Positions 1,544 to 33,562 of a stretch of DNA of 64,000 bases are shown one piece after another (position 1 is the first letter of the stretch; each line of letters starts with the position of its first letter). The stretch is from Bacteroidaceae bacterium (GTDB taxonomy: Bacteria; Bacteroidota; Bacteroidia; Bacteroidales; Bacteroidaceae): NCBI GenBank assembly GCA_017447625.1, contig JAFSNB010000039.1, forward strand, positions 62,001-126,000, in the 5' to 3' direction. A program made the position numbers and the translations under genes. The notes beneath the pieces were generated by a model. It ran no database searches and was not told the origin of the DNA. It saw only the letters and a list, made by a program, of their open reading frames with translations.

Positions 1544-2704
1544 ATGAGAAAGCAAATAATGATTTTGGCAGCATCGGCACTTTTCTTTGCCGCATGCTCA
1601 GAAAAGCCGAAGGTGGAATATCAGACCACCATAGTAGAACAAGGCAACATCTTCACCAGCGTCACAGCAACCGGAACGATTGAGCCTGTGACTAAGGTGG
1701 AAGTGGGAACACAGGTATCCGGTATAGTCAGCAAGATATATGTCGATTACAACAGCATAGTCAAGGCCGGACAGGTTATCGCCGAACTGGACCGCACGAA
1801 CCTGACATCCGAGCTGGCATCTGCCCGCGCCAACCTCACTTCTCAGGAGAGTAATCTCGCTTACCAGCAGGCTAACTACGAGCGCAACAAAGCACTCTAC
1901 GACAAAGGCCTCATCAGTAGCAACGACTTCGAGCAGACCCGTCTGGCATATATCCAGGCACAGCAGCAGGTGAGCACCTCACGCGAGAACGTGAAAAAGG
2001 CAGAGACGAACCTCGGATATGCCACCATCACCAGCCCGATTTCTGGCGTGGTTCTCTCCAAAGCCGTTGAAGAAGGACAGACCGTGGCTGCCTCGTTCTC
2101 CACTCCTACCCTCTTCACCATTGCCCAGGACCTCACCGACATGCGTGTAATCGCTGACATCGACGAGGCCGATATAGGCGAGGTGCGCGAGGGACAGCGT
2201 GTGACATTCACCGTGGATGCCTTCCCCAACGACACCTTCGAGGGCCGCGTGACTCAGGTGCGCCAGGAGCCTACGACAGAAAGCAATGTAGTGACCTACG
2301 AGGTGGTGATCTCCGCCCCCAACGCCGACCTGAAACTGAAGCCGGGCCTCACAGCCAATGTCGTTATCTTCACTCTGGAGAAGAACGACGTGCTTACCGT
2401 TCCCTCCAAGGCTCTGCGCTTCTCGCCCAGCGAGGCTTTGCTGCAGAAGGACGAGACCATTGAGGACTGCGAAGGCAGAAGCAAACTGTGGATTCGCCAG
2501 GACAATGTATTCAAGGCTGTACCGGTGGAAATCGGTGTTACCAACGGCACAATGACTGAGATTCAGTCTGGCATAAAGGCCGGCACGGAGGTTATCGCAG
2601 AGATGACTGTTATCGAAAGCGGCGAACCCGATGCAGCAAGCCAGAACAAGAATCCGTTTATGCCAGGTCCGCGCAACAACAACAAGGATAACAAGAAGAA
2701 ATAA
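1544..2704 (+). CDS. MacA-like periplasmic adaptor (HlyD family lipoprotein)
   Basis: Membrane-fusion protein linking the inner-membrane ABC transporter to the TolC-like channel. It has a lipoprotein signal with lipobox FFAAC (Cys at about 18), a first lipoyl half-motif around 50-85 (GTQVSGIVSKIYVDY), an alpha-helical hairpin at about 85-160, the second lipoyl half (TITSPISGVVLSKAVEEGQ) and beta-barrel and membrane-proximal domains after it. The C-terminus is a polar N/K-rich tail. Its stop codon overlaps the ATG of the ATPase gene by one base (TAATG), pointing to translational coupling. Confidence 0.9.
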   Translation: MRKQIMILAASALFFAACSEKPKVEYQTTIVEQGNIFTSVTATGTIEPVTKVEVGTQVSGIVSKIYVDYNSIVKAGQVIAELDRTNLTSELASARANLTSQESNLAYQQANYERNKALYDKGLISSNDFEQTRLAYIQAQQQVSTSRENVKKAETNLGYATITSPISGVVLSKAVEEGQTVAASFSTPTLFTIAQDLTDMRVIADIDEADIGEVREGQRVTFTVDAFPNDTFEGRVTQVRQEPTTESNVVTYEVVISAPNADLKLKPGLTANVVIFTLEKNDVLTVPSKALRFSPSEALLQKDETIEDCEGRSKLWIRQDNVFKAVPVEIGVTNGTMTEIQSGIKAGTEVIAEMTVIESGEPDAASQNKNPFMPGPRNNNKDNKKK

Positions 2705-3456
2705 TGGACGAACGCAAAGTAGTTATAGAGCTGCAGGATGTCCGACGCAATTTCATTGTCGGTTCTGAGACCGTACATGCCCTGCGCGGAGTCTCCTTCA
2801 AGATCTACGAGGGGGAGTTCGTAACCATCATGGGAACATCCGGCTCGGGCAAATCGACCCTGCTTAACCAGCTCGGATGTCTCGACACCCCTACCAGCGG
2901 CGAATATCTCCTTGACGGCATAAGCGTTCGCTCCATGCGCCGCAGCCAGCGTGCCCGCCTCCGTAACCGCAAGATAGGCTTTGTGTTCCAGAACTATAAC
3001 CTTCTGGCAAAAACCACTGCTGTGGAGAATGTCGAACTGCCGCTGATGTACAACAGCGAGTACGATTCTCGCCAACGCCACGAAGCCGCCGTAAAGGCAT
3101 TGCAGGCCGTAGGTCTGGGCGACCGTCTGGAACATAAGAGCAACCAGATGTCCGGTGGACAGATGCAGCGCGTGGCCATAGCCCGTGCGCTGGTGAACAA
3201 CCCCGCCGTAATCCTTGCGGACGAGGCCACGGGTAATCTGGACACACGCACATCGTTCGAGGTACTTGTGCTCTTCCAGAAACTACATGCCGAGGGCCGC
3301 ACAATAATCTTCGTGACCCACAACCCCGAGATAGCACAGTACTCCTCACGCAACATCGTACTCCGCGACGGACAGATTCGTGAGGACGTGCAGAATCCCA
3401 ATATTCTCAGTGCAGCCGAGGCTCTCGCAGCTCTCCCGCTGCCACAGGACGACTAA
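2704..3456 (+). CDS. MacB-type ABC transporter ATP-binding protein
   Basis: Cytoplasmic ATPase that powers the pump. All key motifs are present in 250 residues: Walker A GTSGSGKST (44-52), Q-loop FVFQNYNLL (about 94), signature MSGGQMQRVAIARAL (about 148), Walker B VILADEATGNLD (about 169) and the switch histidine in FVTHNPE. It belongs to the MacB/LolD/FtsE group. In Proteobacterial MacB this domain is fused to the permease; here the two are separate genes. Confidence 0.92.
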   Translation: MDERKVVIELQDVRRNFIVGSETVHALRGVSFKIYEGEFVTIMGTSGSGKSTLLNQLGCLDTPTSGEYLLDGISVRSMRRSQRARLRNRKIGFVFQNYNLLAKTTAVENVELPLMYNSEYDSRQRHEAAVKALQAVGLGDRLEHKSNQMSGGQMQRVAIARALVNNPAVILADEATGNLDTRTSFEVLVLFQKLHAEGRTIIFVTHNPEIAQYSSRNIVLRDGQIREDVQNPNILSAAEALAALPLPQDD

Positions 3457-3471
3457 AAAGAACAGAGTAAC

Positions 3472-4692
3472 GTGTCAATAGCTAATCTACTGAAAGTAGC
3501 CCTCAAGGCTATACTCAACAATAAGGCCCGCTCCTTTCTCTCCATGCTCGGTATCATCATCGGTGTGGCTGCTGTCATCGTGATGATGGCCATAGGACAG
3601 GGCTCCAAAGAGAGCATACACAAAGAACTCTCTACCATGGGTACTAATCTGCTCACCATACGTCCGGGAGCCGACATGCGTGGCGGCGTGCGTCTTGACC
3701 CCTCGGCCATGCAGACATTGAAGCAAATCGACTATGAGACGATTCTCTCTGAGGCCAAGTTCGTGAAGAAAGCCTCTCCGGAAGTGACATCAAGCGGACA
3801 GGTGATAAACGGTTCGAACAACACCACTTCCACCTGCTATGGTGAATCTACAGACTACCCGTCCATCAAGCTGTGGAACATAGAGAGCGGTCAGTTTTTC
3901 ACCGAAGAGGACGTGAAGAAATCCTCCAAGGTGTGCATAATCGGAAAGACAGTGGTCAAGGAGCTCTTTCCCAACGGACAAGACCCTGTCGGCAAGACCA
4001 TCCGCTTCAAGAATATCCCGTTCCGCGTGATTGGCGTGCTCAAGGGCAAGGGCTACAACAACTGGGGCATGGACCAGGACAACGTGATTATCGCGCCCTA
4101 CACTACGGTGATGAAACGCCTCTCTGCCCAGACCCATTTCAACAGCATCGTTTGCTCCGCCCTCACCGAAGAGCTCACCGACGCTGCCATTGAAGACCTC
4201 ACGCAGATTCTGCGCCGCACACACAAGCTGAAAGAGGGCGAGGAGGACAACTTCACCATCCGCTCGCAGCAGGAATTCATGGACACGATGTCTTCAACCA
4301 TGGACACCATAACCATTATCCTCGTCGTGGCTGCCGCCTTCTCATTGCTCGTGGCCGGAATCGGCATCATGAACATAATGCTCGTGAGCGTAACCGAACG
4401 CACCAAGGAAATCGGTCTTCGCATGAGTGTAGGCGCACGGGGGCTGGATATCAGCAACCAGTTCCTCATCGAGAGTGTCACGATAAGCGTCACCGGCGGT
4501 GTCTTGGGCGTGTTGCTCGGAGGCCTGCTCACATGGGCCTGCAACACATGGGTGGGCTATCCCGCCGTTATCCCGATGTGGAGCGTCATCGTCTCCTTCG
4601 CCGTATGCGTACTCATCGGCATCGGATTCGGATATATCCCCGCTCAGAAAGCAGCCCGAATGGACCCAATCGAAGCAATAAGATACGAATAG
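3472..4692 (+). CDS. MacB-type ABC transporter permease (FtsX domain)
   Basis: Inner-membrane subunit of the efflux pump. The 406 residues contain one N-terminal membrane helix (about 15-40), a large periplasmic MacB core domain (about 45-270), and a C-terminal FtsX domain with three helices around 275-300, 330-360 and 370-395, including the typical stretch MNIMLVSVTERTKEIGLRMS. I take GTG at 3472 as start: it follows the ATPase stop by 15 bases and no ATG gives the full N-terminal helix. It completes the TolC-MacA-ATPase-permease operon. Confidence 0.9.
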   Translation: MSIANLLKVALKAILNNKARSFLSMLGIIIGVAAVIVMMAIGQGSKESIHKELSTMGTNLLTIRPGADMRGGVRLDPSAMQTLKQIDYETILSEAKFVKKASPEVTSSGQVINGSNNTTSTCYGESTDYPSIKLWNIESGQFFTEEDVKKSSKVCIIGKTVVKELFPNGQDPVGKTIRFKNIPFRVIGVLKGKGYNNWGMDQDNVIIAPYTTVMKRLSAQTHFNSIVCSALTEELTDAAIEDLTQILRRTHKLKEGEEDNFTIRSQQEFMDTMSSTMDTITIILVVAAAFSLLVAGIGIMNIMLVSVTERTKEIGLRMSVGARGLDISNQFLIESVTISVTGGVLGVLLGGLLTWACNTWVGYPAVIPMWSVIVSFAVCVLIGIGFGYIPAQKAARMDPIEAIRYE

Positions 4693-17866: not shown

Positions 17867-18523
17867 TCATCTCCTTAATTCTTCTATCTGTTTCTTGAGA
17901 GCGGCGTTTTCGGCCTTAAGGCGTTGGTTTTCGGTTTCAAGCGAGCGCAGGTGTGCGTCTTGTTGTTGCCTGTAGCCGGTGCGGGCAGCATACATACGCT
18001 CCTTGATGCCGCCCTCGGTGACGAAGCGTTTCTCCAGTTTCTCGATGTATGCGTACATCATCTTATCGGTCTGATGGCAGAGGGTGAGGAGGAGGTTGGC
18101 CATCTCCTCGTCGTTCATCTTCGCCACAAGCGGCTCGTAGGAGCTGTAGTCGTTATGGTGGTGGCAGAAATCGCGCAGGCGACGCTGGCGTTCGCTGTCG
18201 GAAGCCCATGCAGGTAGGTGGTGGGTGTTGAGGTAGTCCTGATAGTCTAAGCGCAGTTCCTGAAGGCTGCCACGGGCTACATTCAGGAGCTTTATCTCCG
18301 ACTCAGAGCTTGTCTGCCCGTCCTCGCTGCCTTCAGCGATATTCTGCTTGCCCGAGCGGGCCGCCTGTATCATCTGATCTACAGTGCGGTCACCATAAGG
18401 GGGGAGGAAACGATGACAGAACTCCACCGTCAGCTGGTAGATGGCATCGCTCTTGCGGTAGAAGTACAGCTGCTCCCAGACAACAGGCTTCTTCAGCACC
18501 TTCCCTCTTGTATCGTATTCCAT
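17867..18523 (-). CDS. Four-helix-bundle suffix protein
   Basis: A 218-residue protein. Residues about 15-110 match the four-helix-bundle family related to 23S rRNA intervening-sequence proteins and Avd (FCHRFLPPYGDRTVDQMIQA, then ARSGKQNIAEGSEDGQTSS and EIKLLNVARGSLQELRLDYQ). A 'suffix' region follows (about 110-180) and a coiled-coil tail (about 185-218, LRSLETENQRLKAENAALKK). These bundles form pentamers that bind nucleic acid in characterised relatives. The start codon ATG (18523-18521) is only about 10-30 bases from a 10-bp tandem array, so the array occupies the untranslated leader. A second family member lies at 27200-27943. Confidence 0.85.
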   Translation of the reverse strand: MEYDTRGKVLKKPVVWEQLYFYRKSDAIYQLTVEFCHRFLPPYGDRTVDQMIQAARSGKQNIAEGSEDGQTSSESEIKLLNVARGSLQELRLDYQDYLNTHHLPAWASDSERQRRLRDFCHHHNDYSSYEPLVAKMNDEEMANLLLTLCHQTDKMMYAYIEKLEKRFVTEGGIKERMYAARTGYRQQQDAHLRSLETENQRLKAENAALKKQIEELRR

Positions 18524-18550
18524 AGTTTCTAGGGTTTTAGGGGTTAGGGT

Positions 18551-18758
18551 TAGGAGATTCTAGGAGGTTCTAGGGGTTTCTAGGATTTCCTAGGGGTTCC
18601 TAGGTTTTCCTAGGTTTTCCTAGGCTTTCCTAGGCTTTCCTAGGTTTTCCTAGGTTTTCCTAGGATTTCCTAGGTTTTCCTAGGTTTTCCTAGGCTTTCC
18701 TAGGTTTTCCTAGGTTTTCCTAGGCATTCCTAGGTTTCCTAGGTTTCCTAGGGGTTCC
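18551..18758. repeat. 10-bp tandem array 1 (TAGGNNTTCC, about 21 units)
   Basis: From 18551 the sequence repeats in strict 10-base register: TAGGNNTTCC, with NN mostly TT, CT or AT. Three degenerate units (TAGGAGATTC, TAGGAGGTTC, TAGGGGTTTC) come first, then 15 well-matched decamers, two 9-base units (TAGGTTTCC) at 18731-18748 and a last decamer. Each junction makes the palindrome CCTAGG. There are no spacers, so it is not CRISPR. It lies directly upstream of the four-helix-bundle gene. A more degenerate run (TCTAGGGTTTTAGGGGTTAG) reaches to within 10 bases of its start codon. Confidence 0.95.
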
Positions 18759-18860
18759 TATCCTCTCATTTCGCCTGCAAAGTTAAGCATTAGTGGGAAG
18801 ACCGCCAAAAAGAAAAAGGATTTTCTGCGTTTTTCTTTGGCTAATAAAGCTGAGATAGTA

Positions 18861-19019
18861 GGAAAGTAACTAAGTCACTTGTGGACGGGAAGGGTTCATA
18901 AGGTGGTAATAAAAGTATAAAATCTATATATTTAAAACTCTATTAATAATCTTATAAAGATGTAAACATCGGGCGTTTCTGTTCCTGTCTATAAGTTACT
19001 TTCTTACTTGCTGACTTTT
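18861..19019. repeat. Inverted pair (copies C and B) around an AT-rich core
   Basis: 18861-18887 read on the minus strand begins GTCCACAAGTGACTTAGTTA; 18987-19019 on the plus strand begins GTCTATAAGTTACTTTCTTA. They form an imperfect inverted repeat around about 100 bases of AT-rich DNA, between decamer arrays 1 and 2. Copy B abuts array 2 directly. Both match copy A at 11157-11189. Confidence 0.65.
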
Positions 19020-19020
19020 C

Positions 19021-19100
19021 TGGGATTTCCTAGGATTTCCTAGGATTTCCTAGGCATTCCTAGGCATTCCTAGGGTTTCCTAGGGTTTCCTAGGGTTTCC
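19021..19100. repeat. 10-bp tandem array 2 (8 units)
   Basis: Eight decamers in exact register, TGGGATTTCC followed by TAGGATTTCC twice, TAGGCATTCC twice and TAGGGTTTCC three times. Same unit as array 1. It ends 15 bases before the inverted repeat of the HU-like gene promoter. Confidence 0.95.
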
Positions 19101-19114
19101 TATAAAAAAACTTT

Positions 19115-19175
19115 GAAAATCTTTGATTTTTCTTTGCAAATAATTTGCGGGAGTCAAAGATTTTTCGTACCTTTG
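19115..19175 (+). promoter_or_regulatory. Promoter of the HU-like gene with operator-like inverted repeat
   Basis: TTTG (19144-19147) and TACCTTTG (19168-19175) are 20 bases apart, a full Bacteroidetes promoter match. The inverted repeat GAAAATCTTTGA (19115-19126) and TCAAAGATTTTT (19154-19165) has one arm upstream of the -33 box and one arm between -33 and -7, the geometry of an operator. Transcription should start near 19182, giving a GC-rich 125-base leader. Confidence 0.75.
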
Positions 19176-19306
19176 TGGCAGCAAAGGGGACGAAGGAGAC
19201 TCGTCCGACCCTTCACGGAGACTACGCGCGGACTCCACGGAGGGTAAGGCGAGAAACCATGAAGTCCCCGACGCAACTTTTTGTTTAACCTTAAATTTTT
19301 ACCATC

Positions 19307-19780
19307 ATGATTGATTATGCTGTTGCAATGCTCTCCAACATCCGTACGGGAGAGAAGAAGGCTTACGCCTTCCTACAGAGTCGCGGGACTCTCAGCATCG
19401 ACGAAATCGCAGACCATCTGGTCAGCCACGGCTGCAACTACGACCGAGGCGACGTCATCGCCATCATCACCAAGCTCGTGAACTGCTCCAAGGAGCTGAT
19501 GCTCGACGGCTACCGCATCGAGCTGGGCGATCTGGGCAAGCTCTATCTGACCTGTCAGAGCGAGGGCGCCGTGAGCAAGGAGAAGTTCACCCGCGCCAAC
19601 ATCAAGAGCATCAACGTGAAGTTCTCTGCCTCGAAGCTCTATGACGACCTCCTGCAGAGGGTGTCACTCCACAAGGCTCCCACCCGCAAGGCTTCTGCCG
19701 CCGCGCTGGAAGCAGAGCTGTCCGGTTTGACCACCGCCGACTGGAGCGCCGACGACGACGCTGAAGGCGAAGGCGATTAA
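19307..19780 (+). CDS. HU/IHF-like DNA-binding protein (Bacteroidetes HU-HIG type)
   Basis: A 157-residue protein. Residues about 10-125 resemble the long HU-type domain common in Bacteroidetes: helices with TLSIDEIADHLVSHGCNYDR and VIAIITKLVNCSKELMLDG, then strands YRIELGDLGKLYLTCQSEG and IKSINVKFSASKLYDDLLQR. The C-terminus is acidic (SADDDAEGEGD). HU proteins bend or bridge DNA. The gene sits between two arrays of the same 10-bp repeat (ends 19100 and starts 19782). Since the unit is close to one helical turn, the arrays are a plausible target, but this is inference. Confidence 0.8.
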   Translation: MIDYAVAMLSNIRTGEKKAYAFLQSRGTLSIDEIADHLVSHGCNYDRGDVIAIITKLVNCSKELMLDGYRIELGDLGKLYLTCQSEGAVSKEKFTRANIKSINVKFSASKLYDDLLQRVSLHKAPTRKASAAALEAELSGLTTADWSADDDAEGEGD

Positions 19781-19781
19781 G

Positions 19782-19864
19782 CTAGGGTTTCCTAGGAGAA
19801 CCTAGGCTTTCCTAGGAGAACCTAGGCTTTCCTAGGCTTTCCTAGGCTTTCCTAGAGTTTCCTA
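19782..19864. repeat. 10-bp tandem array 3 (9 units)
   Basis: Starting directly after the stop codon of the HU-like gene: decamers CTAGGGTTTC, CTAGGAGAAC, CTAGGCTTTC, CTAGGAGAAC, then CTAGGCTTTC repeated and degenerate CTAGAGTTTC. The same CCTAGG core as arrays 1 and 2. Two units carry GAGAA instead of CTTTC between cores, so the sequence between palindromes is reversed in sense there. A hairpin-like stretch with a G-run follows at 19872-19900. Confidence 0.93.
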
Positions 19865-19932
19865 AAATCACCTCGGCACCCCTTCCAGAGATGGAGGGGG
19901 TGTCTGTGTTGTATGTTAAAAAAGGCTTTCGC

Positions 19933-25178: not shown

Positions 25179-25287
25179 CTCTTAAACTCTTAAACTATTA
25201 AACTCTTAAACTCTTAAACTCTTAAACTCTTAAACTCTTAAACTTCTTAAACTTCTTAAACTTCTTAAACTTCTTAAACTTCTTAAA
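25179..25287. repeat. 8-bp then 9-bp tandem array (CTCTTAAA / CTTCTTAAA)
   Basis: Eight units of CTCTTAAA (one CTATTAAA) occupy 25179-25242; then five units of CTTCTTAAA occupy 25243-25287. The unit gains one T and the period changes from 8 to 9 at a sharp boundary. It lies between lptG and the helicase gene. Confidence 0.93.
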
Positions 25288-25308
25288 CTCATAAAAAATA
25301 CCTCTTGT

Positions 25309-27199: not shown

Positions 27200-27943
27200 T
27201 CATTTCTCGATTCTCTTAGTCCCATGACAGTCGGGATAGGCAGAACAACTCCAGAACTCATTGCCGGAGTTAACACCTTTCTTAGCCATACGGCGTATCA
27301 TGGGTTTGCCACAGAGCGGACATTGTGGCGCACCAGCCTCAATGTTCTGCTGGGTTCGTTTGGACAATCGCTCGGCAGTCAGAGCCTCGGTGAATCCGCC
27401 TTCCTCGCCAAAGGTGGCAAGCTGCTGTTCTATCTGCTTGCTTAGCATAGCGGCCAGTCGGTTACAAAGAACAATTATGCATCGGGCCACCTGGAAAGAG
27501 TCGCTGTCCTTAAGCCAAAAGTCGAAGCGTTGTTTCTGTCGTAGTATGTGGATGCTGCTTTGATACTGCAAGTCGTCATCGTATGTGGGCTTGTCTAATT
27601 GTATTGACAACACTTGCTTGTACTCTGGTGAGTGTACAGACCACGGCAGCTGCTCGTACTGCAAAAGCCAGTTGAAGTAATCGTTTGTCAATTCGGCCAA
27701 AGTCGCACGAGCCACGTCGGTAAGTTTCATCTCGGTCTCCCTGGATGTAGTATGACGCGAGTTGCCCTCGGCGATATTGGCAGGAGCAGACCGCGCCGCT
27801 TGAGTCATCTGATCGTACTGACGGCCTCCCGGGTCGTTGCTGTGATTTAGAAAACGTCTGCAGAAATCCTGCGTAGCCAGTTGTATGATGTTAGCCAGCA
27901 CCCATGTGTCAAGCCAATAATATCCAAAGCGAGATATTTTCAT
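27200..27943 (-). CDS. Four-helix-bundle protein with C-terminal topoisomerase-type zinc finger
   Basis: A 247-residue paralogue of the protein at 17867-18523. The N-terminal bundle (about 15-110) has the family pattern FCRRFLNHSNDPGGRQYDQM, then ARSAPANIAEGNSRHTTSRE and MKLTDVARATLAELTNDYFN. A middle region follows (about 110-195), and the C-terminus (about 208-247) is a four-cysteine zinc finger (CPLCGKPMIRR and WSCSAYPDCHG) of the type at the end of topoisomerase I, which binds single-stranded DNA. An 8-bp tandem array begins 34 bases upstream of its ATG. Confidence 0.85.
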   Translation of the reverse strand: MKISRFGYYWLDTWVLANIIQLATQDFCRRFLNHSNDPGGRQYDQMTQAARSAPANIAEGNSRHTTSRETEMKLTDVARATLAELTNDYFNWLLQYEQLPWSVHSPEYKQVLSIQLDKPTYDDDLQYQSSIHILRQKQRFDFWLKDSDSFQVARCIIVLCNRLAAMLSKQIEQQLATFGEEGGFTEALTAERLSKRTQQNIEAGAPQCPLCGKPMIRRMAKKGVNSGNEFWSCSAYPDCHGTKRIEK

Positions 27944-27976
27944 AAGAGAGGTTATGAGGGTTAATAATTTTTCTTT

Positions 27977-28096
27977 CGTTTATTCGTTTAAACGTTTATC
28001 CGTTTATTCGTTTACTCGTTTACTCGATTAACCGTTTATTCGATTATTCGATTACTCGATTAACCGATTATTCGATTAACCGTTTCCACGATTTAT
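27977..28096. repeat. 8-bp tandem array (CGWTTANY, about 13-15 units)
   Basis: From 27977 the sequence repeats in strict 8-base register: CGTTTATT, CGTTTAAA, CGTTTATC, CGTTTATT, CGTTTACT twice, CGATTAAC, CGTTTATT, CGATTATT, CGATTACT, CGATTAAC, CGATTATT, CGATTAAC, then degenerate CGTTTCCA and CGATTTAT. The CG and TTA are constant while positions 3, 7 and 8 vary. It lies immediately upstream of the four-helix-bundle gene. Confidence 0.93.
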
Positions 28097-28193
28097 TATA
28101 TTAACGTCTCTGCCCCATTGATTATTGTCAGAGTGAGGTGCCAAAGTTTAACATAACTCAGCACTCGATGCGCCTGCATCCACAACTTAGTAT

Positions 28194-28325
28194 ACAGCCG
28201 TGTGTTAATTAGTAGACAGCCGTGTGTTAATTAACATACAGCCGTGTGTTAATTAGCAGACAGCTGTGTGTTAATTAACATACAGCCGTGTGTTAATTAA
28301 CATACAGCCGTATGCTAAGTGACGA
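28194..28325. repeat. 22-bp tandem array (6 units)
   Basis: Six 22-base units without spacers: ACAGCCGTGTGTTAATTAG plus TAG or CAG alternates with ACAGCCGTGTGTTAATTA plus ACAT; the last unit is degenerate (GTATGCTAAGTGACGA). Each unit contains the palindrome TTAATTAA or GTTAATTA. The 22-base period is close to two helical turns. Confidence 0.93.
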
Positions 28326-32330: not shown

Positions 32331-33562
32331 CTATTTTTTACTCATCAACCGCTTTGTATGCTTCAGTTCTTTTTTCAATAGTTCCATCCGCTCTTTCAGT
32401 TGCTCTTGGGTGGGCAGCATGTCCTTGATGCGAATGTTGTTATAGGTGGCAACGCCCATTGGTGTGCTGATACCCTTGAATGACCACTGAACTTCCGTCT
32501 TGTTCATATCAGAGCATATCAGAAGGCCAATGGTTGGGTTGTCATCAGGAGCCTTCTTTAACTCGTCAACAGCATTTACATAGAAATTTAACTTGCCTGC
32601 GAATTCTGGCTCAAAGGGTTTGGCCTTTAGTTCGCAAACCACGTAGCAACGCAGACGGATATGATAGAACAGCAGGTCTATCTTACGCGAACGCCCACCA
32701 ACGATAATCTCCCGTTGTTTACCCAAGAATGCAAATCCATTGCCCATCTCTAGGAGCAGGTTCGTAACGTTTTCAGTAAGAGCTGCTTCTAATGCATCCT
32801 CGTCGTACACCTCATGCTCTACGGTGGCAAAGCCAAAATCGTAGTTCTCCTTCAAGACCTCCTGTATCAGCTTACTCTGCAGTTCAGGCAGATGCTCGGA
32901 GAAGTTGTTCACAATCTTACCCTGCGTCTCATACAAACGAGCCTTAAAGCAGTTGACAAGTGCTGTCCTGCTCAAGCCATTTGTTATCACTTGGTTTATG
33001 TAAATAGAGCTTCTTCTACACTTCTACTTCTGCTAACAATCTCAATATGCTGCCCCCATGGAACAAGTGCGAAAGGCAGAGGGAAATCAATAGACGTGCT
33101 ATTACTATATTCTGAAACAGGCTGTTTCACAATTTCTCCAACGGGTCGTTGGAGTGTTATGCGTTCCTGATTTATAGACGCTTGCAATTCTCCAATGAGT
33201 CGTTGGAGTTTTTCTGTATCAGCATCGTTAGAATAGAACAGGAACCACTTTTTCATATACCAGAGATTGGATGTAGAGAAGCCATCCTCATTGGGGAACT
33301 CTCGCCTCAAATCCAGGCTTACCTGTTCTACTATTCCTGCACCCCATCGTTCTTCGGCTTTTTTCTGCACAAGGTCGCGTCCCATCTGCCAGTTCCAAAG
33401 AAGCTTCTCAGCATTCACCTTAACGGCAGCCTTCACTTGTGCCGAGCGGTAGCGGTGCTTCACTTCCGCTATCCACTCTGCATACTCTGAGTCCAATGTC
33501 ACATCATGTGACTTTACGATGAGCGGTTTGGATATTATCTCTTCCATTTCATCTTTCTTCAT
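32331..33562 (-). pseudogene. Frameshifted DUF1016 (YhcG-type) PDDEXK nuclease
   Basis: Two consecutive frames join into one DUF1016 protein. The N-terminal part (32996-33562, 188 residues) ends ...VEEALFT-stop. The C-terminal part (to 32331) resumes in another frame with (Y)INQVITNGLSRTAL and carries the nuclease motif KIDLLFYHIRLRCYVVCELK. The break is explained by the loss of one base in a short T-run at plus 33002-33004 (TTTAC where TTTTAC would restore the frame). The catalytic part is otherwise intact (D in KIDLL, E and K in CELK). Family members are putative nucleases, often near defence or mobile regions. A sequencing error cannot be excluded. Confidence 0.8.

Follow-up and report, generated by a model that had tools for sequence, protein, structure and literature searches.

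A 64,000-nucleotide stretch of contig JAFSNB010000039.1 from a Bacteroidaceae bacterium (assembly GCA_017447625.1, positions 62,001 to 126,000 of the forward strand), hereafter called the window, contains a gene for a four-helix-bundle protein that is accompanied by three arrays of a 10-bp repeat. Comparison with related loci indicated that this locus probably belongs to a large class of elements, namely small mobile cassettes that consist of a single four-helix gene and short terminal tandem arrays, a reading to which we assign a probability of about 0.7. Mobility of the cassette class is well supported by filled and empty sites at positions other than that of the window.

Repeat arrays at the window locus

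The features of the locus, in window coordinates, are as follows.

17867 to 18523, minus strand: four-helix-bundle gene with suffix domain, 218 amino acids, the cassette gene (TIGR04258, TIGR02436)
18551 to 18760, no strand: array 1, CCTAGG core, period 10, 5' of the four-helix gene
19023 to 19102, no strand: array 2, CCTAGG core, period 10, between array 1 and the HU-like gene
19782 to 19864, no strand: array 3, CCTAGG core, period 10, from the second base past the HU-like stop codon
19307 to 19780, plus strand: HU-like gene, 157 amino acids (PF18291 HU-HIG, 68.8 bits), a neighbor that is probably outside the system

A first-pass annotation made from the sequence had described three arrays of about 21, 8 and 9 units, and these are real: CTAG occurs 20, 7 and 8 times in arrays 1, 2 and 3, respectively, at a spacing of 10 bp (exceptions: two 9-bp steps, one end of array 1), with constant cores and variable spacers. 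The strict repeat TAGGNNTTCC was found 29 times in the window, compared to 1.29 expected, a count reached by none of 100 shuffles, and 28 of the 29 copies lie inside the arrays. The rarity of CTAG elsewhere was also confirmed, since the window holds 48 copies against about 249 expected from base composition, 36 of them between 18500 and 19900, where all 30 CCTAGG copies of the window lie as well. The reported positions needed some adjustment: array 2 ends about 200 bp short of the HU-like start codon, and array 3, said to follow the HU-like gene directly, begins at the second base after its stop codon, a placement that resembles a tendency of dispersed arrays elsewhere. Across the entire assembly (2.56 Mb, 73% complete), all 25 plus-strand copies of CCTAGGNNNNCCTAGG are at the window locus, to which the in-phase CCTAGG pairs of this genome are thus confined. 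On the gene strand, the RNA of array 1 was predicted to fold into a ladder of CCUAGG pairs (-105 kcal/mol for 260 nucleotides).

The four-helix protein belongs to TIGR04258 (76.4 bits; cut-off, 40) and scores as an S23/IVP-type open reading frame (ORF) against TIGR02436 (38.6 bits; cut-off, 24), while its match to PF05635 (30.8 bits) falls below the cut-off of 33.8. No HuH/Y1 transposase domain was detected in it by Pfam and NCBIfam scans (E of 0.001 or less). A DNA-protein structure formed by one or both of the encoded proteins had been proposed. For the four-helix gene the association with arrays recurs in relatives, but the HU-like gene looks like a bystander because HU relatives are rare near four-helix relatives (3 of 130 other fetched loci, some of which overlap, and 1 of the 80 named loci described below). 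The HU-like gene was therefore rejected as the partner of the arrays and is most likely a neighbor that received them. Linkage to lon was likewise discarded: lon, which was found in 87 of 101 genomes, is present only in the window among 131 fetched sources (window included).

Arrays accompany suffix-type four-helix genes

TIGR04258 was found in 67 of the 101 genomes of the genus, 63 of them above the cut-off. From these we assembled 114 distinct suffix proteins of at least 150 amino acids, including the two of the window and that of locus L024; identical and shorter ones were dropped. When at least four identical 4-letter palindromes in phase were required per flank, arrays were scored on either flank of 59 of the 114 suffix genes compared to 40 of 446 control genes, and on both flanks of 15 and 2, respectively. 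Some suffix genes below this threshold carry arrays that are nonpalindromic or intragenic. In a scan of named genomes, from which the best 80 loci were taken (more exist; 8 identical to genus loci were removed) and which included Hoylesella timonensis, H. loescheii, Hallella multisaccharivorax and Prevotella sp. tc2-28, the 70 further loci that could be scored gave 53 genes positive on either flank and 13 on both. The concern, raised in the first-pass annotation, that homologues might mostly lack adjacent arrays was thus not borne out, arrays being frequent at suffix-gene ends. By eye, the 5' arrays mostly end about 20 to 40 bp ahead of the start codon, whereas the 3' arrays often start at the stop codon, and some arrays extend into coding ends.

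The type of unit differs by lineage, the core and period being TCGA/8, CTAG/9, CTATAG/9, CCGG/9 or CCTAGG/10. Mapped onto the protein tree, the units of 58 labelled genes required 10 changes, compared to a mean of 35.6 (range, 29 to 40) in 500 shuffles. Twelve relatives share 74% identity or more with the window protein over the best segment (one of them, L326, is also a genus locus); CCTAGG-type repeats were seen by eye in all twelve but L327, those of L318 being degenerate.

We considered the possibility that the arrays are neutral microsatellites, that is, slippage repeats in intergenic DNA that lie beside four-helix genes by chance. Short-period arrays are indeed common: with Tandem Repeats Finder (period of 12 or less), they were found upstream of 90, downstream of 84 and on both sides of 29 of 369 control genes. 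Among the 114 suffix genes the corresponding numbers were 70, 71 and 43, and because of these counts the background is high yet clearly exceeded at suffix genes; Tandem Repeats Finder matches alone were dropped as proof. Array length also differs between near-identical copies, as in the 18-bp step between L107 and L116, although such pairs are uneven, their flanks often differ otherwise, and they are not used as main evidence. Against neutral slippage are the enrichment at both ends, the match of units across the gene (see below), cores that follow the protein tree, spacers that vary while cores persist, and arrays that begin at the stop codon. We therefore regard this explanation as very improbable.

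Two further observations concern the surroundings of suffix genes. Type I restriction-modification genes were found near suffix cassettes at 15 of 111 genus loci and 15 of 80 named loci (overlap, 8), including L036, L032, L067, L069, L072, L073, L108, L121, L318, L319 and L320, and at none of 100 control loci, which total 0.42 Mb compared to 1.33 Mb and had been picked for other genes; the queries were confirmed by Pfam as three HsdR-type proteins and one HsdS. In L104, a CTATAG period-9 array lies in frame within an ORF (2088 to 4607) that is membrane-protein-like by eye, where it codes for IESIETIESIESIE (L104:4258-4290, equal to G049:C4:33157-33189), while the 5' array of the four-helix gene of L104 itself is at 33513.

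Matching ends and predicted RNA pairing

Canonical four-helix genes, without the suffix domain, were examined in parallel. PF05635 was present in 37 of 41 genomes of the genus, and canonical relatives score well over its cut-off. The canonical sample consisted of 24 genes from 32 loci (8 had no recovered gene), which are not all independent, as several occupy one site. At least two 8-mers were shared in inverted orientation across the gene in 23 of the 24, compared to 16.7% of mismatched pairs and 10.8% of 752 control ORFs, and direct sharing was seen in 6. Inverted terminal repeats thus surround the ORF in these 23 canonical genes; in the window copy, palindromic units are present 5' of the gene alone. 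For suffix genes the sharing was mainly direct: at least two direct 8-mers were found across 57 of 112 genes (mismatched pairs, 13.8%; control ORFs, 17.8%), across 36 of 77 genes of the named set (mismatched, 15.6%) and, with duplicates removed, across 32 of the 70 further loci (mismatched, 14.9%).

The predicted pairing of RNA from the two flanks followed the same division. For the 24 canonical genes, the 5' and 3' flanks paired at -49.2 kcal/mol, compared to -23.7 kcal/mol for mismatched flanks, and the true partner was the best of 21 in 16 cases. Suffix flanks paired at -31.3 kcal/mol (mismatched, -23.9 kcal/mol; true partner best in 24 of 112), and those of control genes at -32.2 kcal/mol (mismatched, -30.7 kcal/mol; true partner best in 11 of 142). 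Self-folding of the suffix flanks, by contrast, exceeded that of mononucleotide shuffles by a mean z of -2.61, compared to -1.15 for controls. Because of these values, it can be stated that canonical ends pair mutually, while suffix arrays tend toward pairing within themselves.

Such pairing is what would be expected if these elements acted at the RNA level, as intervening sequences (IVSs): the arrays would let the cassette fold out of an operon mRNA and be cut by RNase III, making the insertion harmless, the protein would protect or process the RNA, and mobility would be ancient or incidental. The strong and specific pairing of the canonical arrays and the position of some cassettes within operons are consistent with this, as is the precedent of the Coxiella 23S rRNA IVS, in which terminal inverted repeats accompany an S23 ORF and RNase III carries out the excision (PMC4990558). 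On the other hand, direct copies predominate among suffix arrays, the 5' and 3' flanks of suffix genes pair no more strongly than control flanks do, and solo arrays occur past stop codons with no gene (see below). As a full account this explanation appears somewhat unlikely; it is compatible with the mobile-cassette explanation and can form part of it.

Filled and empty sites

Several genomes carry a canonical cassette between etfA and an acyl-CoA dehydrogenase gene (acd; names by Pfam), the latter being found in 83 of the 101 genomes. Fifty such sites were read, the best 30 and 20 others, with the arrays of L262 read as L221. Thirty-one sites are empty, with the two genes -8 to +24 bp apart, and 8 contain a full four-helix cassette in gaps of 485 to 536 bp. 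One (L256) has an internally deleted cassette in which both inverted arrays are kept, and 4 (L241, L264, L283 and L285) have ORF-less elements with inverted short repeats by eye. The remainder comprise 2 sites with another cassette (L250 and L254), the first 45 residues of which match DUF559 at 16.1 bits, under the cut-off, three ORF-less relatives of this DUF559-type cassette (by eye) and one other short ORF. A second kind of single-gene cassette with inverted ends and a weak DUF559 match, together with its ORF-less relatives, is also present at etfA-acd (L250, L254, L257, L258 and L265). Among genomes, the arrays at this site change jointly on both sides, as judged by eye: GAAGATAGAA, GTAGTTAA, GAAGTTAAAG, GAAGTTATAA. 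Filled and empty sites among relatives, the pattern expected of a mobile element, were thus found at etfA-acd.

A suffix cassette was compared in the same way at the ABC ATPase gene adjoining L102, which was found in 94 of the 101 genomes and for which the best 30 sites were read. Between the LysM-glucosaminidase gene and the ATPase gene, one of the 30 contains a suffix gene between CTATAG arrays, in a gap of 1009 bp. At the site of the next most similar ATPase (98% identity), the gap measures 102 bp and consists of a single uninterrupted CTATAG array that has the same tail, the four-helix gene being absent, and another site has a gene-less CTAGAG array. Gene-less gaps are 18 bp or less in 10 of 28 measurable loci (one locus yielded no upstream gene). 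In L299, L305, L308 and L310 the gap is filled by repeats with a period of about 20 bp, as seen by eye.

The solo CTATAG array (L289; site filled in L288) could also be a preinsertion target, and the arrays in general could be older host repeats into which four-helix cassettes insert. That suffix flanks are mainly direct copies in one orientation would agree with such a target preference. However, canonical ends are inverted, and one split array cannot yield inverted ends; moreover, 31 of the 50 etfA-acd sites are too short for any array, and the unit follows the protein. We consider target preference unlikely.

Dispersed gene-less arrays

Triple CCTAGG and triple CTATAG arrays were found in 23 and 30 of the 101 genomes, respectively, including arrays beside four-helix genes. 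In three genomes (G086, G026 and G037) the CCTAGG arrays listed are spread over many contigs; of 24 such arrays, 15 are no more than 20 bp away from a stop codon and 2 equally close to a start codon, and no four-helix or HU gene was seen in the 20 dispersed-CCTAGG stretches read. The CCTAGG arrays of G080 adjoin sugar-kinase and rhamnose isomerase genes. Arrays scattered without these genes, which the first-pass annotation had named as a finding that would count against it, therefore do occur in G086, G037 and G026, although not in the genome of the window. A strict dependence of dispersed arrays on a same-type gene resident in the genome is unsupported, because no TIGR04258 match was obtained in the array-rich, incomplete assemblies of G086, G037 and G025 (CCTAGG) or of G017, G097 and G059 (CTATAG).

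These results also bear on the proposal of a static DNA-protein structure with every core on one face of the helix. Phasing to one face fails because homologous cassettes use periods of 7, 8, 9, 10 and 11, and helical phasing was accordingly dropped as the point of the arrays. A mobile cassette is favored over a static structure because presence and absence vary at identical sites. In a broader form, the four-helix protein, with or without HU, might bind immobile arrays as operators or as a nucleoprotein structure; palindromic cores with variable spacers would suit a symmetric DNA-binding protein, the arrays abut the four-helix gene, and unit type agrees with the protein tree. Such a regulatory or structural DNA site is nevertheless distinctly unlikely in view of the filled and empty sites, the gene-less solo arrays, the ORF-less inverted arrays, the arrays beside unrelated genes, periods of 7 to 11 that give no single helical face, and the lack of conservation of HU nearby. 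Overall, the first-pass interpretation was partly supported.

Other four-helix genes of the window and its genome

The window contains a second suffix gene with its own array.

27200 to 27943, minus strand: second four-helix suffix gene (TIGR04258, 44.5 bits)
27975 to 28105, no strand: period-8 array (TTCGTTTA/TTCGATTA, TCGA core), about 30 bp 5' of the second four-helix gene

A C-terminal segment of its protein, CPLCGKPM...CSAYPDC, is zinc-ribbon-like by eye. Together with a third suffix gene (L024:5268-6008), which has ATGTCGAA at period 8 on both sides, the two suffix genes of the window account for the three TIGR04258 matches of this genome, and all three have a close upstream array, with a different unit in each. 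The genome also encodes three full PF05635 proteins without the suffix domain, all with short arrays on both sides of the gene, plus a fragment. Just past the period-8 array, a 22-bp tandem repeat of 5.8 copies occupies window positions 28192 to 28318. CTTAAAC arrays (period 8 to 9) gave 65 pattern matches with at most one mismatch on 16 contigs of this genome, and window positions 25179 to 25295 hold such an array.

Cassettes outside Bacteroidota and structural relatives

The canonical protein matched 33 plasmid records, many from Nostoc and Calothrix, 14 of which were read. At least four inverted 8-mers were shared across 7 of the 13 plasmid four-helix genes for which coordinates were given (L400, L403, L404, L405, L407, L410 and L411, the Riemerella gene L407 being the only one not from a cyanobacterium), compared to an average of less than 0.7 and a maximum of 4 for mismatched genes. 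Direct AAAGCTA arrays flank L401, imperfect purine-rich arrays were seen by eye at L399, L402 and L408, and an unannotated copy from Gemmatirosa (L406) has inverted arrays by eye. One plasmid site is a ribonucleotide-reductase beta-alpha gene pair, with the cassette on the opposite strand. On two cyanobacterial plasmids (L401 and L404), the cas6-cas4 pair of CRISPR loci holds a four-helix cassette. Phage records gave no match to the suffix or the canonical protein and viral contigs none to the suffix alignment; a phage origin was accordingly set aside. In sequence searches against solved structures, the canonical protein matched 2gsc (XCC0516; E of 5e-18) and 2rld, and the suffix profile matched 2gsc (E of 1.7e-4); each of these entries is listed with five chains of one sequence.

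Proposed mechanism

Under the favored explanation, a cassette consists of one four-helix gene of the 23S-rRNA-IVS/S23/Avd superfamily flanked by tandem arrays of 7- to 11-bp units. In the canonical form, the two arrays are inverted copies and can pair mutually; units of the suffix branch, which includes the window locus, are often palindromes, and therefore each array can fold on itself. Cassettes occupy intergenic positions; in several cases they separate neighboring genes of one operon, lying between a stop codon and the next start codon. Gene-less solo arrays, often just past stop codons, could remain after the gene is lost through recombination of its two arrays, or could result when arrays spread in trans. 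We infer that the four-helix protein may bind the lineage-specific array in folded form, either RNA or single-stranded DNA, and that it may help to copy or move the cassette and its arrays; a reverse transcriptase or the repair machinery might assist in trans. The dependence in trans is modelled on repetitive extragenic palindromic (REP) elements, which are thought to rely on TnpA-REP. In this fuller form, the cassettes would amount to a new class of mobile element in bacteria, in which each protein would recognize a lineage-specific folded array and mobilize both itself and gene-less arrays in trans; they would be the long-missing source of dispersed 7- to 11-bp repeats in Cyanobacteria, Bacteroidota and perhaps Xanthomonas, and 23S rRNA IVSs would be members that landed in rRNA; we advance this only tentatively, at somewhat less than even odds.

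Several points weigh against mobile cassettes. The four-helix gene at 17867 to 18523 has an array on its 5' side only and none at its 3' end, the site comparisons come from other loci, and no transfer event was observed. Domain scans of the four-helix protein gave no typical transposase, recombinase or nuclease domain. Fifty-five of the 114 suffix genes fall under the palindrome threshold, short arrays are common at control genes, and two plasmid genes (L398 and L409) have no arrays in their flanks. Inverted 8-mer sharing is weak among suffix genes (32 of 112; mismatched, 9.9%; control ORFs, 10.8%) and in the named suffix set (13 of 77; mismatched, 12.3%), and the 5'-3' pairing of suffix flanks does not rise above that of control genes. 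The agreement of unit and protein tree could stem from vertical inheritance of adjacent DNA, several array-rich genomes lack a TIGR04258 match in their incomplete assemblies, and most of the genomes are metagenome assemblies.

Relation to known systems and significance

The 23S rRNA IVS is among the closest known systems. That of Coxiella burnetii has been called a selfish element, horizontally acquired, with an S23 ORF, terminal inverted repeats and excision by RNase III (PMC4990558). The authors also refer to the suggestion that this ORF had a role in mobility (PMC4990558). The cassettes described here share with it the superfamily (PF05635, TIGR02436), a size of about 0.4 to 0.5 kb and inverted terminal repeats around one ORF (PMC4990558). 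In contrast, they lie between protein genes, the window copy included, rather than in 23S rRNA, they terminate in short tandem arrays, arrays also occur dispersed with no gene, and the units of the suffix branch are often palindromic. Similarity to bAvd of diversity-generating retroelements is indicated by a match of the canonical protein to PF22296 (bAvd-like) at 28 bits, under the cut-off of 40. In Flavobacterium columnare, four-helix genes occupy a similar position, between guanylate kinase and nucleotidyltransferase genes (PMC5524665).

REPtrons are TnpA-REP (RAYT) genes, encoding an HuH enzyme, with REPs in their proximity and genome-wide (PMC8266576). Like them, the present cassettes have palindromic repeats bordering the gene and repeat types that go with protein types (PMC8266576); the bordering repeats are dispersed in other genomes, although not in that of the window. 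Unlike REPtrons as described there, they encode a four-helix bundle in which an HuH domain was not found, and they have tandem 7- to 11-bp units rather than single palindromes of about 20 to 40 nucleotides.

Short intergenic tandem arrays have been known for decades in Cyanobacteria and other bacteria. Among dispersed families, TAACTGA repeats are described as having no evident mechanism of horizontal transmission (PMC4679880). GGGAATC and GGGGA(T/C)T repeats occur in Xanthomonas and Nostoc, those of Xanthomonas being generally not associated with mobile elements; the distance of the Xanthomonas GGGAATC repeats to the preceding ORF averages 28 nucleotides, compared to 160 nucleotides to the next (PMC4692102). 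A hairpin-capable short tandemly repeated repetitive (STRR) sequence of cyanobacteria is reported to lie between hupS and hupL (PMC2670836). The arrays studied here resemble all of these in being short, tandem and mostly intergenic (PMC4679880, PMC4692102, PMC2670836), and they share with the Xanthomonas repeats a position closer to the preceding ORF (PMC4692102). The available portions of these three sources name no origin for the dispersed arrays and no partner gene for the heptamer repeats, whereas a cognate four-helix cassette is proposed here, its link to the named repeats being conjectural. No description of array-bounded four-helix cassettes was found in the open-licence literature, as judged by titles and the starts of abstracts among the matches listed.

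Array families that are paired with their own four-helix genes offer a concrete and testable source for dispersed short arrays, and four-helix cassettes may thereby explain puzzling repeats across many bacterial genomes. The 23S rRNA IVS, usually regarded as a curiosity of rRNA, would take its place within a widespread class of cassettes between operon genes, a class also found in some cas and restriction-modification loci.

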